NCBI GenBank assembly: GCA_033344915.1
Contig: JAWPML010000001.1
Span: 248,001 to 312,000 of the forward strand
Direction: 5' to 3'
Length of the DNA: 64,000 nt
From: Acidimicrobiales bacterium
GTDB taxonomy: Bacteria > Actinomycetota > Acidimicrobiia > Acidimicrobiales > Aldehydirespiratoraceae
Part shown: one piece after another, positions 2,504 to 15,482 of the stretch
Numbering within the stretch: position 1 is the stretch's first letter
Layout: every line of letters begins with the position of its first letter
The notes under the pieces: generated by a model
Seen by the model: only the letters and a program-made list of their open reading frames with translations
What the model was told of the DNA's origin: nothing
Database searches by the model: none
Translations under genes and position numbers: made by a program

Positions 2504-5401
2504 TCAGTTCGCCACGCACGAGAACAGCTTCACGGCTCGGCCGACGTAGGACTGGTCGGGGTTCCACACGTCCAGGTAGAGCGTGAACAGCTCGGTCACG
2601 GTGCCGCCGCACGTCATCGTGACGCACGGGCTGGTGAAGGTGCCCAGGCTTCCCTGGAGTGCGCTCTCGAGGGTCCACTCGTGGCTGTGGTAGTCGTCGA
2701 GGTCGAGGCTGGAGCAGAGGTTCTCGGAGCCGGCCCCGGTCACCACGTTCGCTCCGGTGATCGACGGGAGCGGCAGGCTGACCGCGACCACGGTGACCGT
2801 CTTGGTGGCGGTGGCGGACCGACCGGCGCCGTCGGTGACGGTGGCACGCACGGTGTAGGTGCCGGCAGCCGCCCAGGAGTAGTTGGCGGGGTCCTGGACC
2901 GTCGTGACGCCGTTGTCCCAGTCCCAGCTGATGGTCCATCCGTCGACGGCACCGCTCACGGTCGCGTCGTACGAGCCGCTCTGGCCGACGTCGAGTGTGG
3001 AGGGCCCGCTGAACGAGACGCTGAGGTCCGGGAGGGGCGCAGGCGTGATCGTGACGGCTTTCGTCGCGGTGGCGGATCGGCCGGCGCCGTCCGTGACGGT
3101 GGCGCGGACCGTATAGGCACCGGCGGTCGACCAGGAGTGGTTGACCGTCTGCGTCGACGCGTTCGAACTGTCCCCGAACGTCCAGGAAATCGACCAGCTG
3201 CCGCTGTTACCGCTGACGCCACCGCCGAAGGTGCCGCTCTCACCCTCCTCCAGTGACGACGGCCCGGTGATGAAGACCGAGAGGTCGGGAAGCGTCGGTT
3301 CCTGCGGCGTCGGCGGCTCCTGTGGCGTCGGCGGGTCGGGGGTGGTGGGTTCCGCAGGTGTCGGGACGATCGGCGGGTCGACCGGCTCCACCTCGTCGTC
3401 GCAGTCCTCCAGGTTGGGTGGGCAGAGCTCGCCCAACAGTGTCGTGTCTTCTCCGTCGTCTCCGTCTCCGTCTCCGTCGTCGCCCTCGTCGCCGTCTCCG
3501 TCTCCGTCGTCGGCGTCGCCATCCGGGTCGTCGTTCGCCTCGCCGTCATCGCCGTCTCCGTCGTCGGCGTCTCCGCCGTCGCCCTCGCCGTCATCGTCGC
3601 CGAGGTCGTTTCCGGATGCGCCGTCCGATGCGGCGGCGAACTCGTCTCCGGGTTCGAGCGCAGCGTTCGCGGCACTCCACTCCTCGGCCGCAGCCTCGAG
3701 GTCGAAGTCGTCGCCGACCGCGGCGGTGTAGGTGATCTGGACGAGCTCCTGTGCTGCCAGCTCGACGCTCCAGGCAACGATCGGATCCGGGTCGATCACC
3801 TCGTCCGGCGCGACACTGAACACGAGATCGTCGACATGGGCGGCGATGGACTTCGGAATCCACTCCACATGGCGCACCGTGATCGTCTCGTCGGTCGGAT
3901 TGTCGATGACGATTCGACCCACGAGTTCGCCGCCGTCGGGATCCCAGATCCTCTCGACCGTGCCCCCCGACGCCGTCGGCGCGGCGTCGAAGCGCACGCT
4001 TCCGTCGGTGAGCGTCCAACCGACCTCGTCGTCGCCCCCGCCCCCACCGACGGTGAACGCCAGGCCGAGGACGACGAGCAGGAACGCGGCGACGCCGGCG
4101 AGCAGGCGACGAGGGCCGATCCGGTCGACCAGGGACGGCCCGTGATCCCCACTCGCGGTCTGCTGCTCCGGTTTCGGTTCCTCTGTGGGGTCCGTCTGCT
4201 GCGGAGGCTCCATCTGTTGGGGAAGCACGGTGGCGGCGGTGCTGATGATCGTCGCCGGATCCGGTGGCGGTCCGATGAGCGGCGGCGGAGGCAACTGCAT
4301 GGCCTTGGCGCCGCCGATGGCGACGGCGACCTTGGGGTCGTCGTAGGTGTCGGGCGTATCGTCGAACGCCTCCGTCAGGAGTCGGTTGATCAGCGGGATG
4401 CGGCTGGATCCGCCGGTGAGATAGCGGGCCGCAAGATCGGTGGGTTCGAGTCCGGCTCGTTCGATCGTGTGGCTGAACTCGTCGATCGATCGCTGGACGT
4501 CGGCGCGGATGAGTGCCTCGAATTCGGGTCGGGTGACGCGGACTTCGTGGTTGATCGGCGCGGGAAGGAGGGCGCGGTAGGTCGTCTGCCGGCTCAGCGC
4601 CTCCTTGGCGTCGCGAGCGACGCGAAGGACCTGAGCGGCCGCTGTCGTCCATTCGGGATCGTCCGACTCCGTCAGTTGCGCGGCCATGTCGGGTTCGTCG
4701 CCGGCGAGGTGGGCGATCATGAAGTTGGCCAGCCGGTGATCGAAGTCCTCGCCGCCGAGTCGATCATCACCGCCCGGAGGTCCGGCGAGCTCGAAGCCGC
4801 CCGGCGTCCGACGCAGGACCGCGGTGTCGAAGGTGCCGCCCCCGAGGTCGTAGACGGCGACATGGTCGCCCGGTGCCACATTGTCGGTGGCGAAGTGCAG
4901 GGCCGCGGCGACCGGCTCGGGCATGAGTTGCGCGTCGGTGATGCCGGCCCGTTCGGCGGCGTCGACGAGTGCGTCGAGGCGTGCTTGGGGCCAGCGGGCC
5001 GGGTGCGTCAGCAGGGCGCCGTTCGGAGGGACGCCGTTGTGACGCCGCATGGCCTCGTCGAGAACGGCGGTGAGCACGGCGGCAACGGCGTCGACCGTCG
5101 GGATCGCCTCGCCGTCGAGCGCGAGATGTGAGCGGAGGCCGAGAAGACGCTTCGGGTTGCGTTCGGTGGCTCCGGGGAACATCGTCCCCTGTGCATCTGC
5201 GGGGTTGCCGACCACCAGCTCGTCGGCGAGCAGAGCGACCGTCGAGGGCATGCGGCGTACGCCGTCGACCTCGAGTACTTCGACCCGTCCTTCGACCGAG
5301 AGCATCGCGGCGGACGTGTACGTGGTGCCGAAATCAACCGCCAACCACCACACGGAACCGCCGTTCTGGCCCATCTTCTCCCCCGTGAAACGTTGCACCA
5401 T
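2504..5401 (-). CDS. Membrane-spanning Hsp70-family ATPase with extracytoplasmic PKD domains
   Basis: About 965 residues. The N-terminus carries the actin/Hsp70 ATPase signature (LAVDFGTTYTS, residues 20-30), the second phosphate motif (VYDLGGGTFDTAVL) and the adenosine motif (LTGGSSRIPLI), so the nucleotide-binding domain spans about 18-390. There is no classical Hsp70 substrate-binding domain. Instead comes a linker, a membrane helix (LLAGVAAFLLVVLGLAF, about 440), a long Asp/Gly/Glu linker, a Pro/Thr stretch, two PKD-like domains (each with SWxFG/SWDWDNG and YTVRATVTDGAG) and a Cys-containing C-terminal domain. The start at 5401 is preferred because a GAGGGG ribosome site lies 7 bases upstream; ATG 5374 is the alternative. 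Last gene of the dynamin operon, 36 bases after the repeat protein. It is not canonical DnaK; its role is probably at the envelope. Confidence 0.85.
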   Translation of the reverse strand: MVQRFTGEKMGQNGGSVWWLAVDFGTTYTSAAMLSVEGRVEVLEVDGVRRMPSTVALLADELVVGNPADAQGTMFPGATERNPKRLLGLRSHLALDGEAIPTVDAVAAVLTAVLDEAMRRHNGVPPNGALLTHPARWPQARLDALVDAAERAGITDAQLMPEPVAAALHFATDNVAPGDHVAVYDLGGGTFDTAVLRRTPGGFELAGPPGGDDRLGGEDFDHRLANFMIAHLAGDEPDMAAQLTESDDPEWTTAAAQVLRVARDAKEALSRQTTYRALLPAPINHEVRVTRPEFEALIRADVQRSIDEFSHTIERAGLEPTDLAARYLTGGSSRIPLINRLLTEAFDDTPDTYDDPKVAVAIGGAKAMQLPPPPLIGPPPDPATIISTAATVLPQQMEPPQQTDPTEEPKPEQQTASGDHGPSLVDRIGPRRLLAGVAAFLLVVLGLAFTVGGGGGDDEVGWTLTDGSVRFDAAPTASGGTVERIWDPDGGELVGRIVIDNPTDETITVRHVEWIPKSIAAHVDDLVFSVAPDEVIDPDPIVAWSVELAAQELVQITYTAAVGDDFDLEAAAEEWSAANAALEPGDEFAAASDGASGNDLGDDDGEGDGGDADDGDGDDGEANDDPDGDADDGDGDGDEGDDGDGDGDDGEDTTLLGELCPPNLEDCDDEVEPVDPPIVPTPAEPTTPDPPTPQEPPTPQEPTLPDLSVFITGPSSLEEGESGTFGGGVSGNSGSWSISWTFGDSSNASTQTVNHSWSTAGAYTVRATVTDGAGRSATATKAVTITPAPLPDLSVSFSGPSTLDVGQSGSYDATVSGAVDGWTISWDWDNGVTTVQDPANYSWAAAGTYTVRATVTDGAGRSATATKTVTVVAVSLPLPSITGANVVTGAGSENLCSSLDLDDYHSHEWTLESALQGSLGTFTSPCVTMTCGGTVTELFTLYLDVWNPDQSYVGRAVKLFSCVAN
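3445..3600. repeat. Low-complexity Asp/Gly-coding tract in the Hsp70-like gene
   Basis: Runs of ccgtct and ccgtcgtc on the plus strand encode, on the minus strand, a flexible acidic linker of Asp, Gly and Glu between the membrane helix and the PKD domains. The tract is prone to slippage, so its length may vary between strains. Confidence 0.7.
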
Positions 5402-5437
5402 CGTCGTGCCCCTCTGCAAGCGTGCGGCGGGTCGGCG

Positions 5438-6634
5438 TCAGATCCAGCTCGGCAGCGTGAAGCCGAGTCCGGTGGTGTCGAGCGCGGCGAAGAGGGCGTC
5501 GTCGGCGCCGAGGATCTGATCCCGCACACGGATCTCCGTGGCCAGCTGCGTCTGGTTGATCTCGTTGAGGATGAGTCCGTCGAACCCTCCGGCTCCCGGT
5601 CGCCAGGCCCCCGACGCTCGGGCGCTCGCTTCGAGGTCGGCGAGCCACGTGTCCAGACCCTGCAGCCCCGGTTGCGTGGACAGCGACGGGAAGCTGAACT
5701 GGCCGACCAGGCCGGTGCCGTTGAGATGGTCCTGGAACGCCCGGTCCGCCGCGCCGAACGTGGTCTGCCAGACCAGATCGTCGAGCGTGGTGCTCGAAGA
5801 GCTCGGGAGGCCGATGACGTCGGCGATCGCGGCAGGGCCGGCGATCCGGTCGAGGGCCGGGCCGAAGTCCTGGAAACTCTCGAGCGCCGGGTGGGCGAAG
5901 GGGTCGGCCACGAGCTGGTCGGCGAAGGCGAATGCGGCGTCCAGGTCGTCGGCCGGCGCCGTCTCCCAGATCGGAGCGGCAACCGCCGGCGCGGGCTCGA
6001 TGAAGTCGTTGAGCCAGCTGAGGTCCATCGGTGCGGCCGGTGCGACGTCGGTGAAGGTCGGCTCGCTGACGAAGACCGGCTCGGCGACGGGGGCGAGGAT
6101 GGTCTCGAAGACGTCCACACCCGGCGCTTCCAGGGTCGGCACGGCCTCGACCACCGGAACCTCAGCAACGGTGTGCACCGCGGGAACCTCGAGCGCATCG
6201 TCGATGCCGTTGTAGTTCCAGTCGTTGGTGGCGTCGATGTAGTCGTCGATGCCGTTGTAGTCCCAGTCGTTGGTGGCTTCGACATAGTCGTCGATGCCGT
6301 TGTAGTTCCAGTCGTTGGTGGCGTCGATGTAGTCGTCGATGCCGTTGTAGTCCCAGTCGTTGGTGGCTTCGACATAGTCGTCGATGCCGTTGTAGTTCCA
6401 GTCGTTGGTGGCGTCGATGTAGTCGTCGATGCCGTTGTAGTCCCAGTCGTTGGTGGCTTCGACATAGTCGTCGATGCCGTTGTAGTTCCAGTCGTTGGTG
6501 GCGTCGATGTAGTCGTCGATGCCGTTGTAGTCCCAGTCGTTGGTGGCTTCGACATAGTCGTCGATGCCGTTGTAGTTCCAGTCGTTGGTGGCCTCGACGT
6601 AGTCGTCGATCCCGTTGAAGTTCAAGTCAGCCAT
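5438..6634 (-). CDS. Ca2+-loop-like repeat protein of the dynamin/Hsp70 operon
   Basis: About 398 residues. After MADLN the N-terminal third is ten tandem 15-residue units of the form DWNYNGIDDYVEATN alternating with DWDYNGIDDYIDATN. Each has D1, N/D3, N5, G6 and E/D12, the ligand spacing of EF-hand, dockerin or thrombospondin-3 Ca2+ loops. The remaining 245 residues are Ala/Pro/Glu-rich, then alpha-helical, ending LPSWI. There is no signal peptide. ATG 6634 is supported by GGAGGG nine bases upstream. It lies between the YbjN-like gene (79 bases) and the Hsp70-like gene (36 bases). By position it resembles mycobacterial IniB, which is also repetitive, but I see no sequence similarity. Calcium binding is inferred from the motif. 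Confidence 0.8.
   Translation of the reverse strand: MADLNFNGIDDYVEATNDWNYNGIDDYVEATNDWDYNGIDDYIDATNDWNYNGIDDYVEATNDWDYNGIDDYIDATNDWNYNGIDDYVEATNDWDYNGIDDYIDATNDWNYNGIDDYVEATNDWDYNGIDDYIDATNDWNYNGIDDALEVPAVHTVAEVPVVEAVPTLEAPGVDVFETILAPVAEPVFVSEPTFTDVAPAAPMDLSWLNDFIEPAPAVAAPIWETAPADDLDAAFAFADQLVADPFAHPALESFQDFGPALDRIAGPAAIADVIGLPSSSSTTLDDLVWQTTFGAADRAFQDHLNGTGLVGQFSFPSLSTQPGLQGLDTWLADLEASARASGAWRPGAGGFDGLILNEINQTQLATEIRVRDQILGADDALFAALDTTGLGFTLPSWI
6194..6627 (-). repeat. Tandem 45/90-bp coding repeat
   Basis: The 45-bp unit alternates between two versions, giving a 90-bp super-repeat that recurs with almost no silent change over more than 360 bp (for example the block at 6241 returns identically at 6331 and 6421). 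Such near-identity at the DNA level means recent expansion or ongoing homogenisation. It encodes the ten Ca2+-loop-like units of the overlapping gene. Confidence 0.95.
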
Positions 6635-6713
6635 CTCGGCTTCCCTCCGCTTTGTCGAGTCATGGAGTCAGATGCGAGCCATGCCCTCGATGTTCCAATG
6701 AAACTCGAAAATC

Positions 6714-7187
6714 TCAGTCCTCGTCGGTCGGGTCGTTCTGCTCGCGGGTGCGCCAGAACGCGACCGACGAGCGCAGAAGCAGCTCGAGGTGGACGTCGAT
6801 GACCTCGGCGGGGAGGTCGCCGACGAGCGGGGTCCAGGATTCCAGGACGAGTGCGGCCACGTCGTCGGCGGTTGCGAGGCGAGCCGTCGGCAGGAATGCG
6901 CCCCGATTCCACTGGTTGCACGCCGCGGCGAGATTGCCCCAGTGTTCCTTTTCGTACGTCGCCTCGCCCGTCGCCCGGAACAGCAAGGCAGGCTGCTCAC
7001 CGCCGTTCTGACGGACTTCGAGCCGGATGGGGACACGCAGACGCTCGGCCGAGAGGCCGGCGCGGATCGCATGGGACGAACGGGTCGACGAGATGCCGCG
7101 GCGGTCGAGCCAATCCGCCACATGATCGAGCCTGGATGGGCGTTCGGGTTCGGTACCGGACGTCGTATCGGCCGTGGGGTCACTCAT
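6714..7187 (-). CDS. YbjN-like small protein
   Basis: About 157 residues. After a short polar N-terminus comes one compact alpha/beta domain: LDHVADWLDRRGI, a charged beta strand (VPIRLEVRQNGGEQPALLFRATG), the CNQWNR segment, and C-terminal LELLLRSSVAFW. The CNxWNR element followed by a final helix that starts with a hydrophobic pattern is typical of the YbjN/type III chaperone-like fold, whose members are thought to bind partner proteins. The start at 7187 has GGAG 7 bases upstream. It sits between the second dynamin-like GTPase (76 bases) and the repeat protein (79 bases), so it may act as a chaperone or adaptor for one of them. That role is inference. Confidence 0.6.
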   Translation of the reverse strand: MSDPTADTTSGTEPERPSRLDHVADWLDRRGISSTRSSHAIRAGLSAERLRVPIRLEVRQNGGEQPALLFRATGEATYEKEHWGNLAAACNQWNRGAFLPTARLATADDVAALVLESWTPLVGDLPAEVIDVHLELLLRSSVAFWRTREQNDPTDED

Positions 7188-7263
7188 GCGATGTCTCCTC
7201 TGCTTGGTCGTACGACGTGAGAGTGCGCCGCAACGACGAATGTTCCCGCGGCGAGGCGCATTC

Positions 7264-9096
7264 TCAGTCCGCTCCCGATCGAAGCGCCTCGGCCCGTACG
7301 ACGAGCGCCGCCCGCGTCCGATCCAGTTCCTGGAGCTCGCCCACGCGACGCCGGCGGGCTTCGACGTCCGACCGTGCGAGCTCCCGCGTCTCCCGCAGGG
7401 CGCGGTCGGTCTCGCGCCGGCGGATGGCGATCCGTTCGCTGATCTCGTGTTCGAGTTCTCGGCGAAGGGAGGCGGTCTCCTGTGCCAGTTGCCGACTGAG
7501 CGTCCGGCGGACATCGGCGAGGGTCGATCGAACGAGATCCAATGCCTGGCGTTGGGTCGACGCCGCGGAGCTCTGGCGCTGCCGAACCCGGATCATCACT
7601 CCACCGGCGACGACGCCGACGCCGACGAGCACGGGTGCCAGTGCGGCACTCACGGCTCCGCCGAATGCGCCCATCCCGAGCGTTGCCATGGACGAGGGGA
7701 GCGACGCCGCAAGCACTCCGGGATACGCGGCCATCGTCTTCTCGCCGATCGTCGTTCTGGCGCCTTCGATCGCTTGCGCGGCCGACGCCGCGATCGAATC
7801 GGACAGCGACGCCGGGACCTCGAGTGCGCCGAACGGGATGTCGAGATCGTCGCCGTCGATGAGTTCCTCCGTGGCGGCGACGAGCGTCTCGATGAACCAG
7901 TCGTCGAGGAACTGCGTGAGTTCGAGCCAGAGGGCGGCGAGCGACTCGGTCATGTCCTGCTCGATGCGGGAGATCAGATCGGTGTGGCCCTCGCGCGCGA
8001 AGGCCGAATAGCGGGTGTCGAGGGCCTTGATACGAGCCTCTGCTTGCGCGTCGAAGTCGGCGGTCAGGTTGCGCAACCAGTAGTCCATGTCGACGCGCCA
8101 GCGTGCCGACGTGCTGGCGAGGTCGTGGAGGCGCTGCTGCATCGCCTCCAGGCGCTGCACGGTCTCCGGCTCGGCCCTGGCCTCGCTCAGCCGCTCGGCG
8201 ATCCTGATCTCGAGCTGGGCAAGAGCGGCGAGCGTCTCGCTCGCCGCGTTGGCTTCCTTGACTCGCCGGCGGCCGATTCCGTGCGGTCGGAGTTCCTCTC
8301 GCAGCTCGAGCAGGTTGGAGCGTTGCATCGCCGCTTCGGCCAGCTGCGTCTTGCCCTCGCCCATCGCAGCCCGAGCCTGTTCGGCGAGATGCGCGCTCAC
8401 GGCAACGAACGGGATCTCGCTGAGCGACGGATGACCGGCGAGCACCTTCCGGTTGGCCGAGATGATTTCGTCGACCGAGGAATACACGTCCGTCTTCGTC
8501 GCCGCGATGACCACCGTGTCGACCCGATCCTTGATCTCGAGGAGCAGTTCGACCTCGGTCCGGCTCAGCGGAGCGGCCGCGCTGGTGACGAAGAGGACGG
8601 CGTCAGCGGTGTGGAGCGTGGCCAGCGTGAGCGCCAGAGTCGGTGGGCCCGCCGCCCCCGAGCCGGGCGTGTCGATGATTCCGACACCGTCACGAAGGAA
8701 GTCGCAGGGATACTGCACCGAGACTCCCCGGACCCCTTTCTCGTTGGCGGGATTACCTTCGGCCGTCGCGTACTCGGCAAGGTCGGCGGGAAGGATCGAC
8801 GCGGGATCATCACTGTCGACCACGTACACCGACGCGGATTCCGTCGGTCCACCAGTGACCGCAACGTGATGGCGGGTGGACGCGCCGGGCCCGGCGGGAA
8901 GGAGGTCCCCGCCGAGGAGGGCGTTGACGAGGCTGCTCTTTCCCTCACCGGTCAGACCGACCACCACGATGCCGAAGGTCTGCTTGGTGAGTCGGGCCCG
9001 CGCCGCTTCGAGACGAGAGACGGTGAGCTCGGCATCGAGACGACCTGCGAGCTTGGCCGACTCGGTGAGCAGCGACGACGTCTCCCCGCCCGTCAT
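7264..9096 (-). CDS. Dynamin-like GTPase with hydrophobic membrane region (IniA-like position)
   Basis: About 610 residues. GTPase motifs are visible: G1 GLTGEGKSS (47-55), G3 DTPG (142-145) and G4 TKTD (200-203). Long helical stretches follow, typical of the bacterial dynamin stalk, then a hydrophobic Gly/Ala-rich segment at about 465-515 that could be the membrane-inserting paddle, then a coiled coil rich in Arg/Glu. Its ATG overlaps the stop of the upstream GTPase gene by four bases (ATGA). Bacterial dynamins commonly work as pairs in membrane remodelling or protection, for example mycobacterial IniA/IniC, so these two probably form a hetero-complex. Assignment to the family is firm; the function is inferred. 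Confidence 0.88.
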   Translation of the reverse strand: MTGGETSSLLTESAKLAGRLDAELTVSRLEAARARLTKQTFGIVVVGLTGEGKSSLVNALLGGDLLPAGPGASTRHHVAVTGGPTESASVYVVDSDDPASILPADLAEYATAEGNPANEKGVRGVSVQYPCDFLRDGVGIIDTPGSGAAGPPTLALTLATLHTADAVLFVTSAAAPLSRTEVELLLEIKDRVDTVVIAATKTDVYSSVDEIISANRKVLAGHPSLSEIPFVAVSAHLAEQARAAMGEGKTQLAEAAMQRSNLLELREELRPHGIGRRRVKEANAASETLAALAQLEIRIAERLSEARAEPETVQRLEAMQQRLHDLASTSARWRVDMDYWLRNLTADFDAQAEARIKALDTRYSAFAREGHTDLISRIEQDMTESLAALWLELTQFLDDWFIETLVAATEELIDGDDLDIPFGALEVPASLSDSIAASAAQAIEGARTTIGEKTMAAYPGVLAASLPSSMATLGMGAFGGAVSAALAPVLVGVGVVAGGVMIRVRQRQSSAASTQRQALDLVRSTLADVRRTLSRQLAQETASLRRELEHEISERIAIRRRETDRALRETRELARSDVEARRRRVGELQELDRTRAALVVRAEALRSGAD

Positions 9097-10610
9097 TCCC
9101 GATCTCGTCCTGCTCGTGCCGGCTCAGCCTGCGTCTCTGCCGTTGCTCGCTCCCAGATGATCATCAAGGACTGCCGCAGCGTCGCCGCCGCTTCTCGGAC
9201 GTCCCGGTCGGAACGCGGGTCGTTCTCGAGCGCCTGCCAGCGAGTCGTCGCGGCCAGAGCGGTCTCGGCCACGGTCGCCGGCTCGCTCGTTGCGGGCACG
9301 CCGAGCCGTTCGTGGGGCGTACGACTCGTCACGAGCCGCTCGGCGGCGGCCAGATCCGCCGACGGCAGACGCAGCCCGTCGCGCCGGATCATCCGGAGGA
9401 CACTCAGCTCCGCGAGCAGATGGAGATCAGGGTGCAGGGACAACTCGCCCACGCCTCGGCGCAGCTGCTCCAGGGCCGAGCGCTCCGGGTCCGGAACCCG
9501 TGCGTAGGAGAGACGCTCGAGTTCATCGAGGCTCTGTCGTGCCTTCACGGCGTGGGCACGCTCGGCGAGGACCTCGCCGAGCGTGCGGTCGAGCTCGGCG
9601 AATCCCGACGCCTGTGCGAGATGGGCGAGAAGACCGGCGGTCCCGGTGGCATCGGCACCGAGCTTTCGGACTGCCCGCCGAACACCCTGCAGACCCAGCA
9701 GCTGGAGCAGCCGCTCACGGGCGGCCGGCGTGGCGGGCAACTCGCTCTCCCGAAAGTCGCTCGGCGAGAGAAGCGCGATCTCGAGCACCTCGGTGTCGGT
9801 CGCGGCGATCGTCCGCAGGGCACGCGCGTCGGCCTCGGTGAATGCCTCCGCCGCCGCCGTCTCCGCGATCAAACCGTTGACCGGCAGCACATCGAACGCA
9901 CACCGTCGAAGCTCCTCGGACAGGGTTGCCGCGGTGCGCCGGGCGTGGGGCCAGGGATCGGGTTCGTCGGTGAGCTCGTCGATTCGCGACAGCACGGCGA
10001 GCGTCGTGATCGGGGAGGAGGCGGTGTTGCCGAGGGCGGACGCGACACGGTGGAGTCGGTCGGTGTCCTGTTCGAGGAGGTGGGGGAGCAGGAATATCAG
10101 CGCGTCCGCGGCCCGTATCGGACCGACCGAGTCGCCGAGGCCGAGGAGGTCCTCGGTAGCGCTCGCCGACGGGATGTCCGAAGAGTCGAGCCCTGGTGTG
10201 TCGATCAGGGTCATCTGTTCGAGGCGAGCGTTCGACAGCCAGACGGTCACATGATGGATGCTCGCCGCCGGCGCCCCGAGGTCCTCGGGCAGGCGACCGT
10301 TCTCGCTCAGCGAGACCGTCCACTCCGCACCCTCGTGGGGCGTGACCGTGACCCGCTCTCGCGATCCGTAGCGGAACCAGGTGACGACGCGGGTGCACTC
10401 GCCGGCCGCGACGGGGGCGACGCGTTGGCCGAGCAGCGCGTTCACGAGCGTCGACTTGCCCGACTTCAGTCGCCCGGCAACGGCGACGGTGAGTGGCTCG
10501 GTGACCCGCTCCGCCGCGGTCGCGAGCGGGTCGCGCAGGCGCGATCCGCTCGGGAGGTCGGCGATGATGTGCTTGCAGAGAGCTGCAATGTCGGCCGTGA
10601 GATCTTGCAT
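9093..10610 (-). CDS. Dynamin-like GTPase without membrane helix (IniC-like position)
   Basis: About 505 residues from ATG 10610 (AAGGG upstream; longer in-frame extensions would run into the divergent sigma gene). Motifs: G1 GRLKSGKS (46-53), a switch I Thr region (GECTRVVTWF), G3 DTPG (137-140), G4 SRID (208-211). The rest is alpha-helical with no clear membrane segment, so it is likely the soluble partner of the downstream GTPase, to which it is coupled by a 4-base overlap. It is the first gene of the five-gene operon. The 79 bases upstream are shared with a divergent sigma factor gene and should hold the promoters of both. Confidence 0.88.
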   Translation of the reverse strand: MQDLTADIAALCKHIIADLPSGSRLRDPLATAAERVTEPLTVAVAGRLKSGKSTLVNALLGQRVAPVAAGECTRVVTWFRYGSRERVTVTPHEGAEWTVSLSENGRLPEDLGAPAASIHHVTVWLSNARLEQMTLIDTPGLDSSDIPSASATEDLLGLGDSVGPIRAADALIFLLPHLLEQDTDRLHRVASALGNTASSPITTLAVLSRIDELTDEPDPWPHARRTAATLSEELRRCAFDVLPVNGLIAETAAAEAFTEADARALRTIAATDTEVLEIALLSPSDFRESELPATPAARERLLQLLGLQGVRRAVRKLGADATGTAGLLAHLAQASGFAELDRTLGEVLAERAHAVKARQSLDELERLSYARVPDPERSALEQLRRGVGELSLHPDLHLLAELSVLRMIRRDGLRLPSADLAAAERLVTSRTPHERLGVPATSEPATVAETALAATTRWQALENDPRSDRDVREAAATLRQSLMIIWERATAETQAEPARAGRDRE

Positions 10611-10689
10611 GACACCCTTGGTGGAGCGTCCGCTGATGGTACTCCTCGGTTGAGCGGGGCTGTACTCTCGCCTCTGTCTTGGAGGTGGT

Positions 10690-11259
10690 GTGAGCGGACC
10701 GTCGCGGAACCGTCTGGCGCGAATGGACGACGGTGATCTCGTGCGTCGAGTGCGCGACGGCGATGCTGCCGCAGTCGAGACACTTCTGGATCGGCACTTC
10801 GACTTCGTGCACAACGTGTGTCGCACCATCCTGTGGCGGCGAGAGGACGAGGATCGGCTCGCGACCGCCCGTCAGGTGGCGCTGACCCAGATCGCCCGGC
10901 ACCTCGCCGGGTTCGAGGGACGCTCGAAGCTGACCACCTGGATGTATCCGATCGCTCGAAATGCGGCCCTCGCGGAGGCCCGGCGCCGCAGGATCGACCC
11001 GACGGATGCCGTCGCCGTCGAAGCCGAGACCACGCCGGGGCCGGAGGCGCGGGTGGTCTTGCGCGACGCTCTCGACGACTGCCTCGACCGTCTGCCCGCG
11101 GCGTATCGCGACGTGTTGACGCTGCGGCTCATCGGTGAGCTCGACTATCAGGAGATCGCCGACCGACTGGGCGTGGTCATGGGCACGGTCAAGCAGCGGA
11201 TCTCGCGGGGTCGCGAAGCGCTCCGCCGATGTCTGACCGGAAAGGACATCGAGCCGTGA
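10690..11259 (+). CDS. ECF-type RNA polymerase sigma factor
   Basis: About 189 residues from GTG 10690 (GGAGG at 10681, only 4 bases away); ATG 10723, giving MDDGDLVRRVRDGD, is an equally good start. Region 2 (VETLLDRHFDFVHNV through LTTWMYPIARNAALAEARRRR) and region 4 (LDRLPAAYRDVLTLRL...LDYQEIADRLGVVMGTVKQRISRGREAL) are both complete, so it should recruit polymerase to its own promoters. It is divergent from the dynamin/Hsp70 operon and followed 73 bases later by an acidic protein that could be its regulator. Its targets cannot be read from the sequence. Confidence 0.9.
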   Translation: MSGPSRNRLARMDDGDLVRRVRDGDAAAVETLLDRHFDFVHNVCRTILWRREDEDRLATARQVALTQIARHLAGFEGRSKLTTWMYPIARNAALAEARRRRIDPTDAVAVEAETTPGPEARVVLRDALDDCLDRLPAAYRDVLTLRLIGELDYQEIADRLGVVMGTVKQRISRGREALRRCLTGKDIEP

Positions 11260-11332: not shown

Positions 11333-11761
11333 ATGAGTGACAACGGAAACGCCGAGATCCCGGTGGACGACGACGAATTCGACGCGTTCGTGGTGCGCGC
11401 CATGCTCGACGCCGGCCCCGCCTCCGTCGATGCGAACGTGCGAGCCGCGGAGATCAGCGCGGCGGTGGCTGCCGCGGAGGTGCCACTCGGCGAGGACGCC
11501 GCAGAGTCCGGCGTCGGCGACGAAGAGCCTGACGACATGGATCCCGACGACATGGGGGAGGCACTCGAGGCCGCCCGCGAGCGGGAGATCGACGCGCTCC
11601 TCGATGACGACCTCGATCTGCCCGCGGTGGACGCCGACTTCGAGCTACCGCCGGACTTCTCCGAGCCGGTCTCCACGCTCGCCGACGCCGTGGACGACGG
11701 GTTCGCCGAGCCGGAGCTGGACGACGTCGATGTCGATGACGACGACCCGGACGGACTCTGA
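11333..11761 (+). CDS. Small highly acidic protein downstream of sigma factor (unknown)
   Basis: 142 residues, extremely rich in Asp, Glu and Ala, with no Cys, no His, no membrane segment and no signal peptide. A GGAGAGG ribosome site precedes ATG 11333. The N-terminus (DDDEFDAFVVRAMLDAGPASVDANVRAAEI) may form helices; the C-terminus is mostly acidic disorder. Position directly after the sigma gene suggests a soluble anti-sigma or accessory factor, but none of the usual zinc-finger or membrane features are present. Function unknown. Confidence 0.7.
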   Translation: MSDNGNAEIPVDDDEFDAFVVRAMLDAGPASVDANVRAAEISAAVAAAEVPLGEDAAESGVGDEEPDDMDPDDMGEALEAAREREIDALLDDDLDLPAVDADFELPPDFSEPVSTLADAVDDGFAEPELDDVDVDDDDPDGL

Positions 11762-14390: not shown

Positions 14391-15477
14391 TGTGACGACC
14401 GGGGACGTTGTCCCTGGGTTGATGGGGTGGGGTGATCCACCGATGGGTTGAGCCCTCCGAGTGAGGCTGTGGGTGTTCCACCACTCACATCTCAACCGGA
14501 GGGCTCTATGAGTCACGCTAGAACCCAGCACCCGAACGCGGTGATGACCCCGAATGGTCGGCGCCGAATGGTCGGCTGTGTGCTTGAAGAGGGCTGGTCG
14601 ATCGAGGCGACTGCGCAGCGGTTCCAGGTCGACGCGAAGACGGTGCGCAAATGGCGCGACCGGTTCCTGACCGAAGGACCCGGTGGTCTGCGGGACCGTT
14701 CATCGCGACCTCACCGATCACCGAACAAAACGTCCCCGCGGGGACGTCGTGAAGTGATCCGTCTTCGCAAGAAGCGGCGGTGGGGCGCCGATCACATAGC
14801 GCATGAGACGGGTCTGGCCGCGTCAACGGTGCAGAACATCCTGCGAGCTGAGGGGCTGGGCCGACTCGATCGAGGCGACCGAGCCAGCGCCGAACCGGTC
14901 ATTCGCTATCAACGCGACCGGCCAGGCGAGCTCATCCACGTCGACATCAAGAAGATCGCCGCGATCCCCGACGGCGGCGGCTGGCGCATCCACGGCCGAG
15001 GCAACGACACCACTCGCGGCCATTCCGGCGTCGGTTACCGCTACATCCACTCCGCCATCGATGACCGCACCCGGCTCGTCTACTCCGAGATCCACGACGA
15101 CGAACAAGCCCTCACCGCCGCCGAGTTCTGGCTGCGCGCCAACCACTGGTTCAACCGCGCCGGCATCGAATGCGAACGCGTCATCACCGACAACGGACCC
15201 TGCTACCGCTCACAGCTCTGGCACACCGCATGCGACACCACCGGCACCACGGTGAAGAAGACGCGCCCAAGGCGACCGCAAACCAACGGCAAGATCGAAC
15301 GCTTCCACCGCATCCTGCTCGAGGAATGGGCCTACATCCGGCCCTGGACCTCAGAGACCCAACGCGCCACCTACTACCGCGGGTTCATCCACTTCTACAA
15401 TCACCACCGATCCCACGGAGCACTCGGCTGGGCAACCCCAGCCTCAAACCTCAGGGACAACCTCCCCGCGGAGCACA
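14391..15477 (+). mobile_element. IS481-family insertion sequence, complete
   Basis: The terminal inverted repeats begin TGTG at 14391 and, reading inward, TGTG at 15477. Of the first 26 positions 20 match, with a perfect 9-bp block (TTGTCCCTG) at the same offset. The flanking sequence ACTAGC is present on both sides (14385-14390 and 15478-15483), a 6-bp target duplication of the NCTAGN form reported for IS481. One transposase gene fills the element. Clean ends, duplication and intact gene indicate a recent, probably active insertion. Confidence 0.93.
14450..14506 (+). promoter_or_regulatory. Hairpin that hides the transposase ribosome-binding site
   Basis: GAGCCCTCCG at 14450-14459 is the exact reverse complement of CGGAGGGCTC at 14497-14506, which contains the GGAGGG ribosome site two to ten bases before the transposase ATG (14508). 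Smaller dyads (GTGG/CCAC, AGTG/CACT) lie inside. Transcripts entering from outside would fold this stem and block translation, a control known from other insertion sequences. The folding is inferred. Confidence 0.6.
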
Positions 15478-15482
15478 ACTAG
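14508..15482 (+). CDS. IS481-family transposase (DDE)
   Basis: 324 residues. N-terminal helix-turn-helix (GWSIEATAQRFQVDAKTVRKW, about 29-50) with a second HTH-like part (RWGADHIAHETGLAASTVQNIL), then an RNase H-fold rve domain with catalytic D146 (IHVDIKK), D228 (ITDNGPCY) and E264 (NGKIERFHR). This is the full length for the family, with all catalytic residues present. The reading frame runs off the right end of the element: the TAG stop at 15480-15482 lies in the duplicated target DNA, so the host supplies the stop codon. Confidence 0.95.
   Translation: MSHARTQHPNAVMTPNGRRRMVGCVLEEGWSIEATAQRFQVDAKTVRKWRDRFLTEGPGGLRDRSSRPHRSPNKTSPRGRREVIRLRKKRRWGADHIAHETGLAASTVQNILRAEGLGRLDRGDRASAEPVIRYQRDRPGELIHVDIKKIAAIPDGGGWRIHGRGNDTTRGHSGVGYRYIHSAIDDRTRLVYSEIHDDEQALTAAEFWLRANHWFNRAGIECERVITDNGPCYRSQLWHTACDTTGTTVKKTRPRRPQTNGKIERFHRILLEEWAYIRPWTSETQRATYYRGFIHFYNHHRSHGALGWATPASNLRDNLPAEHN

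Follow-up and report, generated by a model that had tools for sequence, protein, structure and literature searches.

We propose, with moderate confidence, that five neighboring genes on the minus strand of an Acidimicrobiales genome encode an envelope stress membrane-remodeling module that is a sister lineage of the mycobacterial iniBAC system and in which an Hsp70-type ATPase works with a pair of dynamin-family GTPases. The genes lie in a stretch of 64,000 nucleotides (the window), which covers positions 248001 to 312000 of a 4.48-Mb genome on a single contig and has a GC content of 67 to 73% in 4-kb steps. Read from position 10610 to position 2504, the open reading frames (ORFs) specify an IniC-like GTPase, an IniA-like GTPase, a YbjN-like protein, a repeat protein, and an Hsp70 protein with a predicted transmembrane segment (TM) and PKD domains (Table 1). 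The proposal draws on sequence comparison: homology, gene order, recurrence of partner genes, a fusion in four relatives, domain layout, and purifying selection.

An earlier note on this DNA listed these five genes in this order, with an ATGA overlap between the GTPase genes and short gaps. All of this is present: the overlap falls at 9093 to 9096, and the remaining gaps measure 76, 79, and 36 bp. The five genes may form one transcript. Beyond that note, we found a divergent extracytoplasmic function (ECF) sigma factor gene with an acidic companion, a reversed gene order relative to iniBAC, and Hsp70-family genes that are frequent at ini-type loci in general.

Kinship and distribution of the GTPase pair

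Both GTPases retain the P loop, the DTPG motif, and a G4-like motif, and both scored above the Dynamin_N cutoff. The 610-amino-acid (aa) protein matched Mycobacterium smegmatis IniA (6j72) over its full length (phmmer, 9e-23, residues 9 to 592). Against the proteins of six mycobacterial loci it matched IniA at 1.6e-27 and IniC at 2.4e-5, and the 505-aa protein matched IniC best (8e-43), with IniA at 3e-12. The hydrophobic segment of the IniA-like protein aligns with the region of the lipid-interacting loop of M. smegmatis IniA, which the available text of PMC6715688 places at residues 480 to 492. None of the solved structures that were matched was an IniC. An AlphaFold2 model of the window IniC (pLDDT 87.4, from 24 sequences) resembled mitofusin 1 (Z 21.6, root mean square deviation [RMSD] 5.1 over 305, Foldseek E value 5e-10), M. 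smegmatis IniA (Z 20.2, RMSD 6.2 over 268, Foldseek E value 5e-9), and chain C of the Campylobacter pair 5oxf (Z 17.5, RMSD 3.6 over 285). In this model, the IniC-like protein has the mitofusin/BDLP/IniA fold.

The ini-type system is patchy in occurrence. In the family of the window's genome, 6 of 51 genomes had an IniC-like match and 6 of 51 an IniA-like match (E value of 0.001; the genome itself and weak matches included). In the class, 49 of 395 genomes matched the IniA-like protein (E value of 0.001), and in the phylum, 25 of 396 matched an IniC profile at 1e-20. For comparison of loci, 40 stretches from genome scans and 60 named loci were fetched, and genes were called with a codon usage script in the 40 stretches and in 44 of the named loci; the other 16 (L158 to L165 and L167 to L174) were weak matches, nearly all from outside the actinobacteria. 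The class scan supplied 35 fetched stretches, a part of its matches, with the best or longest taken first. Loci were scored with profiles made in this analysis. This first set held 85 loci including the window, 15 of them without a called pair; one of the 70 pairs (L132, on the contig of L087) was dropped, leaving 69.

A tree of IniC (68 rows) split into clades of 53 and 15 rows with an SH-aLRT support of 100 (quick search, no bootstrap). All members of the 53-row clade, here called classical, have the order iniA-iniC, and they include the six mycobacterial loci. In the 15-row sister clade, which contains the window, the order was iniC-iniA in 12 loci. The IniA tree (67 rows, likewise from a quick search without bootstrap) placed the same 15 rows on one side of a branch with an SH-aLRT support of 100, with a long-branch warning inside the sister clade. 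Since both trees separate the same rows, IniC and IniA have diverged together. Because of its length, one fused locus (L056) was left out of the IniC tree; by default it was assigned to clade I. Sister-clade loci include those of Amycolatopsis, Saccharothrix, Glycomyces, Geodermatophilus, Frankia, Williamsia, and Millisia. The MAG contig QEUP01000017.1 (L121; 198,545 bases), titled Acidobacteria, is probably mislabeled; L243 (G1009:C26), of equal size, belongs to a genome placed in the order of the window's genome.

A later set, of loci outside the set on which these ideas were formed, was obtained by running the sister-clade IniC profile on 396 and 397 genomes. It comprised 38 stretches, of which L243 was dropped (the contig of L121), 37 were annotated, and 33 had a pair (5 sister clade and 28 classical). 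All six of the six new sister-clade matches above 500 bits were fetched, and the classical loci are part of the lists of matches. L258, close for both clades (214 versus 265 bits), was counted as classical. Because L263 to L267 are near copies (>85% identical) and L263 and L264 are 93 to 94% identical to L150, the later set is not fully independent. All five later sister-clade pairs had the order C-A. One of them (L242) carries, on both strands and in a row, a sigma gene, an acidic ORF, IniC, IniA, DTDGDG repeats, and Hsp70, a layout close to that of the window minus the YbjN-like gene.

Two kinds of genes recurred mainly in the sister clade. An ECF sigma gene lay within 6 kb of 6 of the 15 sister-clade pairs versus none of the 54 others (Fisher P value of 4e-5, relatedness ignored), and a gene with at least three D.D.DG-type motifs lay within 6 kb of 9 of 15 versus 5 of 54 (P value of 1e-4, relatedness ignored). 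The later set gave 3/5 versus 0/28 classical pairs for the sigma gene and 4/5 versus 0/28 for the repeat gene. The conservation of the repeat gene beside the pair, on which the earlier note had staked its idea of a unit, was thus found in both sets of sister-clade loci.

Like the iniBAC/IniR loci of mycobacteria, the window has IniA and IniC orthologues side by side. It differs from them in the order C-A, in its place in the sister clade of both trees, and in its facing ECF sigma gene, repeat protein, and YbjN-like gene. The IniB N-terminal domain (NF038175) matched none of nine locus proteins at E values up to 1, and its best match in the genome (E value of 0.29) fell under the cutoff. IniR (NF038181) had eight matches in the genome, all to its last 90 positions and under the cutoff. 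As positive controls, a Mycobacterium pinniadriaticum locus (L150) scored 64 bits for IniB_NTERM (cutoff, 40) and 1298 bits for IniR (cutoff, 750). The resemblance to iniBAC drawn in the earlier note holds for the homology of IniA and IniC and fails for gene order, clade, and the presence of IniB or IniR above cutoff. Judged by its members, the window locus is a sister type of iniBAC and not iniBAC itself. The Cj-DLP1/DLP2 proteins of Campylobacter jejuni also form a side-by-side dynamin pair like that of the window; the available portion of PMC6104087, which describes them, names no Hsp70, repeat, or sigma gene.

In the closest relative (G025, of the same genus), one short contig carries a partial IniA gene together with the genes for IniC, the sigma factor, and the acidic protein, and a second contig carries the repeat and Hsp70 genes in the order found in the window. 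Ratios of nonsynonymous to synonymous substitution rates (dN/dS) against this relative were 0.15 for Hsp70, 0.16 for the repeat protein (from residue 102 on), 0.135 for IniA, and 0.119 for IniC, which shows purifying selection on these four operon genes. The sigma and acidic genes gave 0.075 and 0.19.

Hsp70-type ATPases beside and fused to ini-type dynamins

The Hsp70 protein of the window matched PF00012 (3e-40) only up to profile position 369 of 599. In all 10 Hsp70 proteins scanned, the best stretch ended at positions 369 to 380, which indicates that the substrate-binding domain is absent. The ATP site motifs DFGTT, NPKRLLG, EPVAAAL, DLGGGTFD, and GGSSRIP are kept, and one predicted TM, starting at about residue 433, is followed by the two PKD domains. 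The protein thus shares with DnaK and HscA an ATPase domain with phosphate and adenosine motifs and differs from them in having a TM and PKD domains instead of a substrate-binding domain. Among complete Hsp70 genes near pairs in both sets, 60 of 74 had a predicted TM behind the ATPase domain; the DnaK of the window's genome had none. The domain that follows varied, from PKD in the window to Septum_form (PF13845, 5e-11) in L074 and a BamB/PQQ-type propeller in L116 and L241. In the last two (L116:14706-17504 and L241:3844-5967), the ATPase domain is joined to the beta-propeller and neither protein has a clear TM.

An Hsp70-family gene lay within 6 kb of 36 of the 49 pairs with 5 kb or more of sequence to either side (29/37 classical and 7/12 sister clade), the fusion in L056 being counted as no Hsp70 gene; among all 69 pairs, the count was 43. 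In the later set, such a gene lay near 27 of 33 pairs (24/28 classical and 3/5 sister clade); the Hsp70-fold gene of L259 (379 aa) may be MreB-like. Four genes of the window's genome have an Hsp70 fold: DnaK, the gene described here, a gene reading as MreB, and a fourth. From this one genome, the rough chance of an Hsp70 neighbor is about 1.4% per locus. The recurrence of 36/49 is about fifty times that rough estimate. By comparison, an Hsp70 gene was absent from all nine loci in which an IniA-like GTPase with a weak score stood alone. These nine came from the 15 loci without a pair; the control left out L023, L062, L068, L085, L130, and L140, in which the contig ends before the partner or the gene caller missed it, and 5 of these 6 had an Hsp70 gene. 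In one genome with a second sister-clade IniC and no called IniA beside it (L239, G857:C23), an Hsp70 gene follows directly.

In one genome (G409), a single uninterrupted open frame of 988 aa (L056:7950-10916) joins an Hsp70 ATPase domain (residues 2 to 394, 464 bits) to a complete IniA (residues 384 to 982, 474 bits); in Pfam, the matches were HSP70 at 7e-46 and Dynamin_N at 3e-18. Full-length fused relatives occur in G1060 (71% identity), G1091 (66%), and G1058 (57%), with open frames of 999 to 1023 aa (L280 to L282), so that the fusion is present in 4 of 200 genomes of the family of G409, in four genera. Fusion is the usual sign that two proteins act together, and this one puts the ATPase on the same side of the membrane as the GTPase. 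Together, the recurrence and the fusions indicate that the system includes an Hsp70-type ATPase acting with IniA, on which it would have the effect proposed below. The earlier note had counted on conservation of the Hsp70 gene next to the pair, and the well-flanked pairs, the later loci, and the four fused genomes all agree with it. The gene next to the G409 fusion (L056:10909-13860) encodes IniC behind a protein kinase domain, and single open frames with an IniC-like domain behind a protein kinase domain were also seen at L250:7831-10662 and L273:6860-9961.

Mycobacterial loci also carry Hsp70-TM genes. In L147, L149, and L150, these adjoin iniR-type and iniB*-type genes (names confirmed by NCBIfam for L150 only), and L149 has three Hsp70-type genes around iniA and iniC. 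The order in M. pinniadriaticum (L150) is iniR, Hsp70-TM, Rv0340-type iniB* (Rv0340_fam, 204 bits; cutoff, 100), iniB, iniA, and iniC. Boot 2017, in the available text of PMC5760070, has one sentence on a dnaK-like gene beside iniR in M. smegmatis. Beyond that sentence, our literature search, which mostly did not extend to subscription journals, found nothing on Hsp70 together with ini-type dynamins; an Hsp70-type ATPase as a regular neighbor, and sometimes a part, of these dynamins seems to have been noted in print only there. The CoCoNuTs described in the accessible part of PMC11090510 contain Hsp70 and no dynamin.

Proposed mechanism and alternatives

IniA and IniC are tied to tolerance of cell wall drugs. 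We propose that the two GTPases of the window act from the cytosolic face of the cytoplasmic membrane as a heterotypic pair of dynamins that would cut or seal damaged membrane patches or release vesicles. Membrane cutting is inferred from published IniA biochemistry and mycobacterial vesicle work. The available text of PMC6715688 reports GTP-driven cutting of membrane tubes by IniA in vitro, that of PMC6104087 states that bacterial dynamins occur mostly in operon pairs and that Streptomyces DynA and DynB interact, and that of PMC11832169 links iniAC to vesicle release; on these grounds, we read the pair as probably cutting or sealing membranes when the envelope is under stress.

The Hsp70 protein, membrane anchored in the window, could be an ATP switch and not a general chaperone, because it has no substrate-binding domain. 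Its inner ATPase domain would act on IniA and govern whether the dynamin coat assembles or is released; outside, the PKD domains may touch the cell wall. The repeat protein would stand in IniB's place as a scaffold, possibly using calcium, and the divergent ECF sigma factor could stand in IniR's place as the regulator. How dynamins are told where and when to act is a missing link for which an Hsp70-type ATPase is a direct candidate. The constant parts of the sister lineage would be the two GTPases and often Hsp70, with IniB seemingly swapped for D.D.DG repeats and IniR for an ECF sigma factor.

A broader proposal, which we hold more in doubt than in belief, is that at actinobacterial ini-type loci, including those of mycobacteria, an Hsp70-fold ATPase drives assembly or disassembly of the dynamin pair. 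In most cases it would span the membrane and sense the state of the cell wall by an outer domain that varies (PKD in the window and Septum_form in L074), and in a few cases it is fused to IniA; the window would then represent a second lineage with a calcium loop scaffold and ECF sigma control.

Several observations weigh against the proposal for the window, its broader form, or both. Twelve of the 49 well-flanked pairs have neither an Hsp70 gene within 6 kb nor a fusion (the thirteenth, L056, is the fusion), among them the sister-clade loci L115, L119, L120, L151, and L166; L122, with a short flank, also lacks an Hsp70 gene. Where present, the gene is often on the other strand and so need not be cotranscribed. 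The membrane-spanning layout is common and not universal, since 14 of the 74 Hsp70 genes have no TM in a simple hydropathy scan and the fused form has no separate membrane anchor ahead of IniA. The variable domains are placed outside the membrane on the basis of their types, and ATP site letters differ at some motif positions in a minority of 53 aligned Hsp70 sequences. Kinship of the repeat protein with IniB was considered and rejected, none being detected by Pfam or NCBIfam. The YbjN-like protein, which the earlier note had included as a part of the system, had no relatives beside other pairs (E values up to 0.05 in the first loci and up to 1e-5 in the later ones).

The alternative that fares best, although we regard it as rather unlikely, is a machine for vesicle secretion and not repair, in which the dynamin pair pinches off vesicles and the repeat and Hsp70 proteins select cargo or site. 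According to the available text of PMC11832169, citing Gupta 2023, IniA and IniC presumably assist extracellular vesicle release in M. tuberculosis; the same GTPase step would serve release and repair, and sequence does not separate the two.

The Septum_form domain at the end of the L074 Hsp70 protein could point to a cell division pair acting at the septum like Streptomyces DynA and DynB, whose interaction fits such a role, as does the operon pairing of most bacterial dynamins (available text of PMC6104087). A division function would be expected in most genomes, and the patchy matches to the IniA-like protein (6 of 51 family genomes, the window's own included, and 49 of 395 class genomes) make this reading improbable.

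An antiphage or toxin release system of the Leo type appears quite improbable. The PADLOC models LeoBC (6.8e-18) and LeoA (6.9e-15 and 2.8e-11) matched the GTPases; these are matches to the dynamin fold, and IniA matched better and over the full length. LeoABC, a three-gene set, resembles the window in its dynamin-fold GTPases and, unlike it, is not known to include an Hsp70-TM protein; PKD and ECF sigma genes are not known Leo parts either, and the other three proteins of the operon matched no PADLOC model. One of 10 nearby proteins did match PADLOC (PD-T4-6), over a stretch that we take to be PASTA repeats. A distant IniC-like protein is fused behind a CHAT domain in one open frame (L257:8482-11358), and CHAT domains occur in immunity systems, which lends the Leo reading some support.

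It is very improbable that the Hsp70, repeat, and sigma genes are carried as passengers in a variable island and have no joint function with the GTPases: the order and strand of the Hsp70 gene vary and some pairs lack it, but its recurrence far exceeds the chance estimate, again in the later loci, it was absent from all nine lone-GTPase loci, and it is fused to IniA in some genomes, with clade-wise recurrence alone speaking for the repeat and sigma genes.

Companion genes and surroundings of the operon

TABLE 1 Features of the ini-type locus in the window
Feature	Position	Strand	Basis
IniC-like dynamin-family GTPase, 505 aa, first gene	9093..10610	-	Dynamin_N 8e-15; GRLKSGKS, DTPG, and SRID motifs; AlphaFold2 fold
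IniA-like dynamin-family GTPase, 610 aa	7264..9096	-	Dynamin_N 7e-21; phmmer to 6j72; hydrophobic segment near residue 484
YbjN-like protein, 157 aa	6714..7187	-	PF10722 3e-5
Repeat protein, 398 aa	5438..6634	-	Ten 15-residue units; orthologue in G025 adjoining the same Hsp70 gene
Hsp70 ATPase domain, Pro-rich linker, one TM, acidic linker, and two PKD domains, 965 aa	2504..5401	-	Pfam; TM prediction; ATP site motifs
Divergent ECF sigma factor	10690..11259 (start 10690 or 10723)	+	Sigma70_r4_2 9e-17; TIGR02937; G025 orthologue beside the IniC gene
Acidic protein of 142 aa following the sigma gene and possibly its partner; no family	11333..11761	+	Orthologue in G025
Divergent intergenic region, 79 bp, presumed promoters	10611..10689	.	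5/79 differences to G025

The repeat protein consists of units of the form NDW[ND]YNGIDDY[VI][ED]AT, the first and last of them degenerate, followed by about 250 residues without a known family. In its gene, Tandem Repeats Finder reported a 45-bp period in 9.6 copies and a 90-bp higher-order period with a score of 820 (6198 to 6628). The units alternate between NYN and DYN in the window, and those visible in G025 are all DYN, a sign of in-frame turnover of the repeat array. The earlier note called this a Ca2+-loop protein. The D-x-[ND]-Y-N-G-I-D-D stretch is indeed spaced like a D.D.DG loop; among the calcium-binding families of Pfam, none gave a match at E values up to 1, so the term is a reading of the letters. 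PF18884 (bacterial TSP3) matched neither this protein nor the plain DTDGDG arrays of L074 and L242. An AlphaFold2 model of the repeat protein from two sequences had a mean pLDDT of 42.5 and was set aside.

The repeats of L116 and L241 are followed by a C39-peptidase-like domain. Beside classical pairs, proteins that combine SLT_3 and NlpC/P60 domains with TSP3-type D.D.DG loops were found at L131:14990-16546, L148:5974-7335, and L155:5288-6721, and at L146:1527-4790 the same combination is in one frame with IniA. Those of L131, L148, and L155 are three of the five D.D.DG-repeat genes counted near pairs outside the sister clade. Such proteins may link wall turnover and calcium-type loops to the dynamins.

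The YbjN-like assignment is weak (24.7 bits; cutoff, 22), and the place of this gene falls in the contig gap in G025. A search of 10 chosen genomes found no relatives, an empty answer that proves little; the gene may be a local addition.

The sigma factor scored 82.7 bits for TIGR02937 (cutoff, 42.9). The divergent region is well kept in G025, with dS values of 0.58 and 0.76 for its two flanking genes. It contains a direct repeat, GTACTC-N17-GTACTC (10639 to 10667), which is kept in G025; chance readily produces a 6-base repeat within 79 bp, and we make no claim for it. By eye only, the acidic protein looked similar to the TM protein that follows the sigma gene of L074; phmmer gave no match at E values up to 0.05, and the similarity was rejected. 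Between 2300 and 11900, a scan for sigma-70-type promoters, weakly informative in a GC-rich actinobacterium, found none (0.4 expected), and three terminator-like sites were found versus 2.9 expected, nothing above shuffles.

Three sister-clade loci (L237, L240, and L242) adjoin what by eye are likely cytochrome c oxidase genes. Farther along the window, an ORF at 14829 to 15482 resembles an integrase core transposase by a motif; it had no match in PADLOC, which alone was searched. On the other side of the operon, positions 1 to 2485 hold two long plus-strand ORFs that matched no Pfam or NCBIfam family above cutoff. Both are acidic, the second has a predicted TM, and they converge on the Hsp70 gene, the nearer one ending at 2485.

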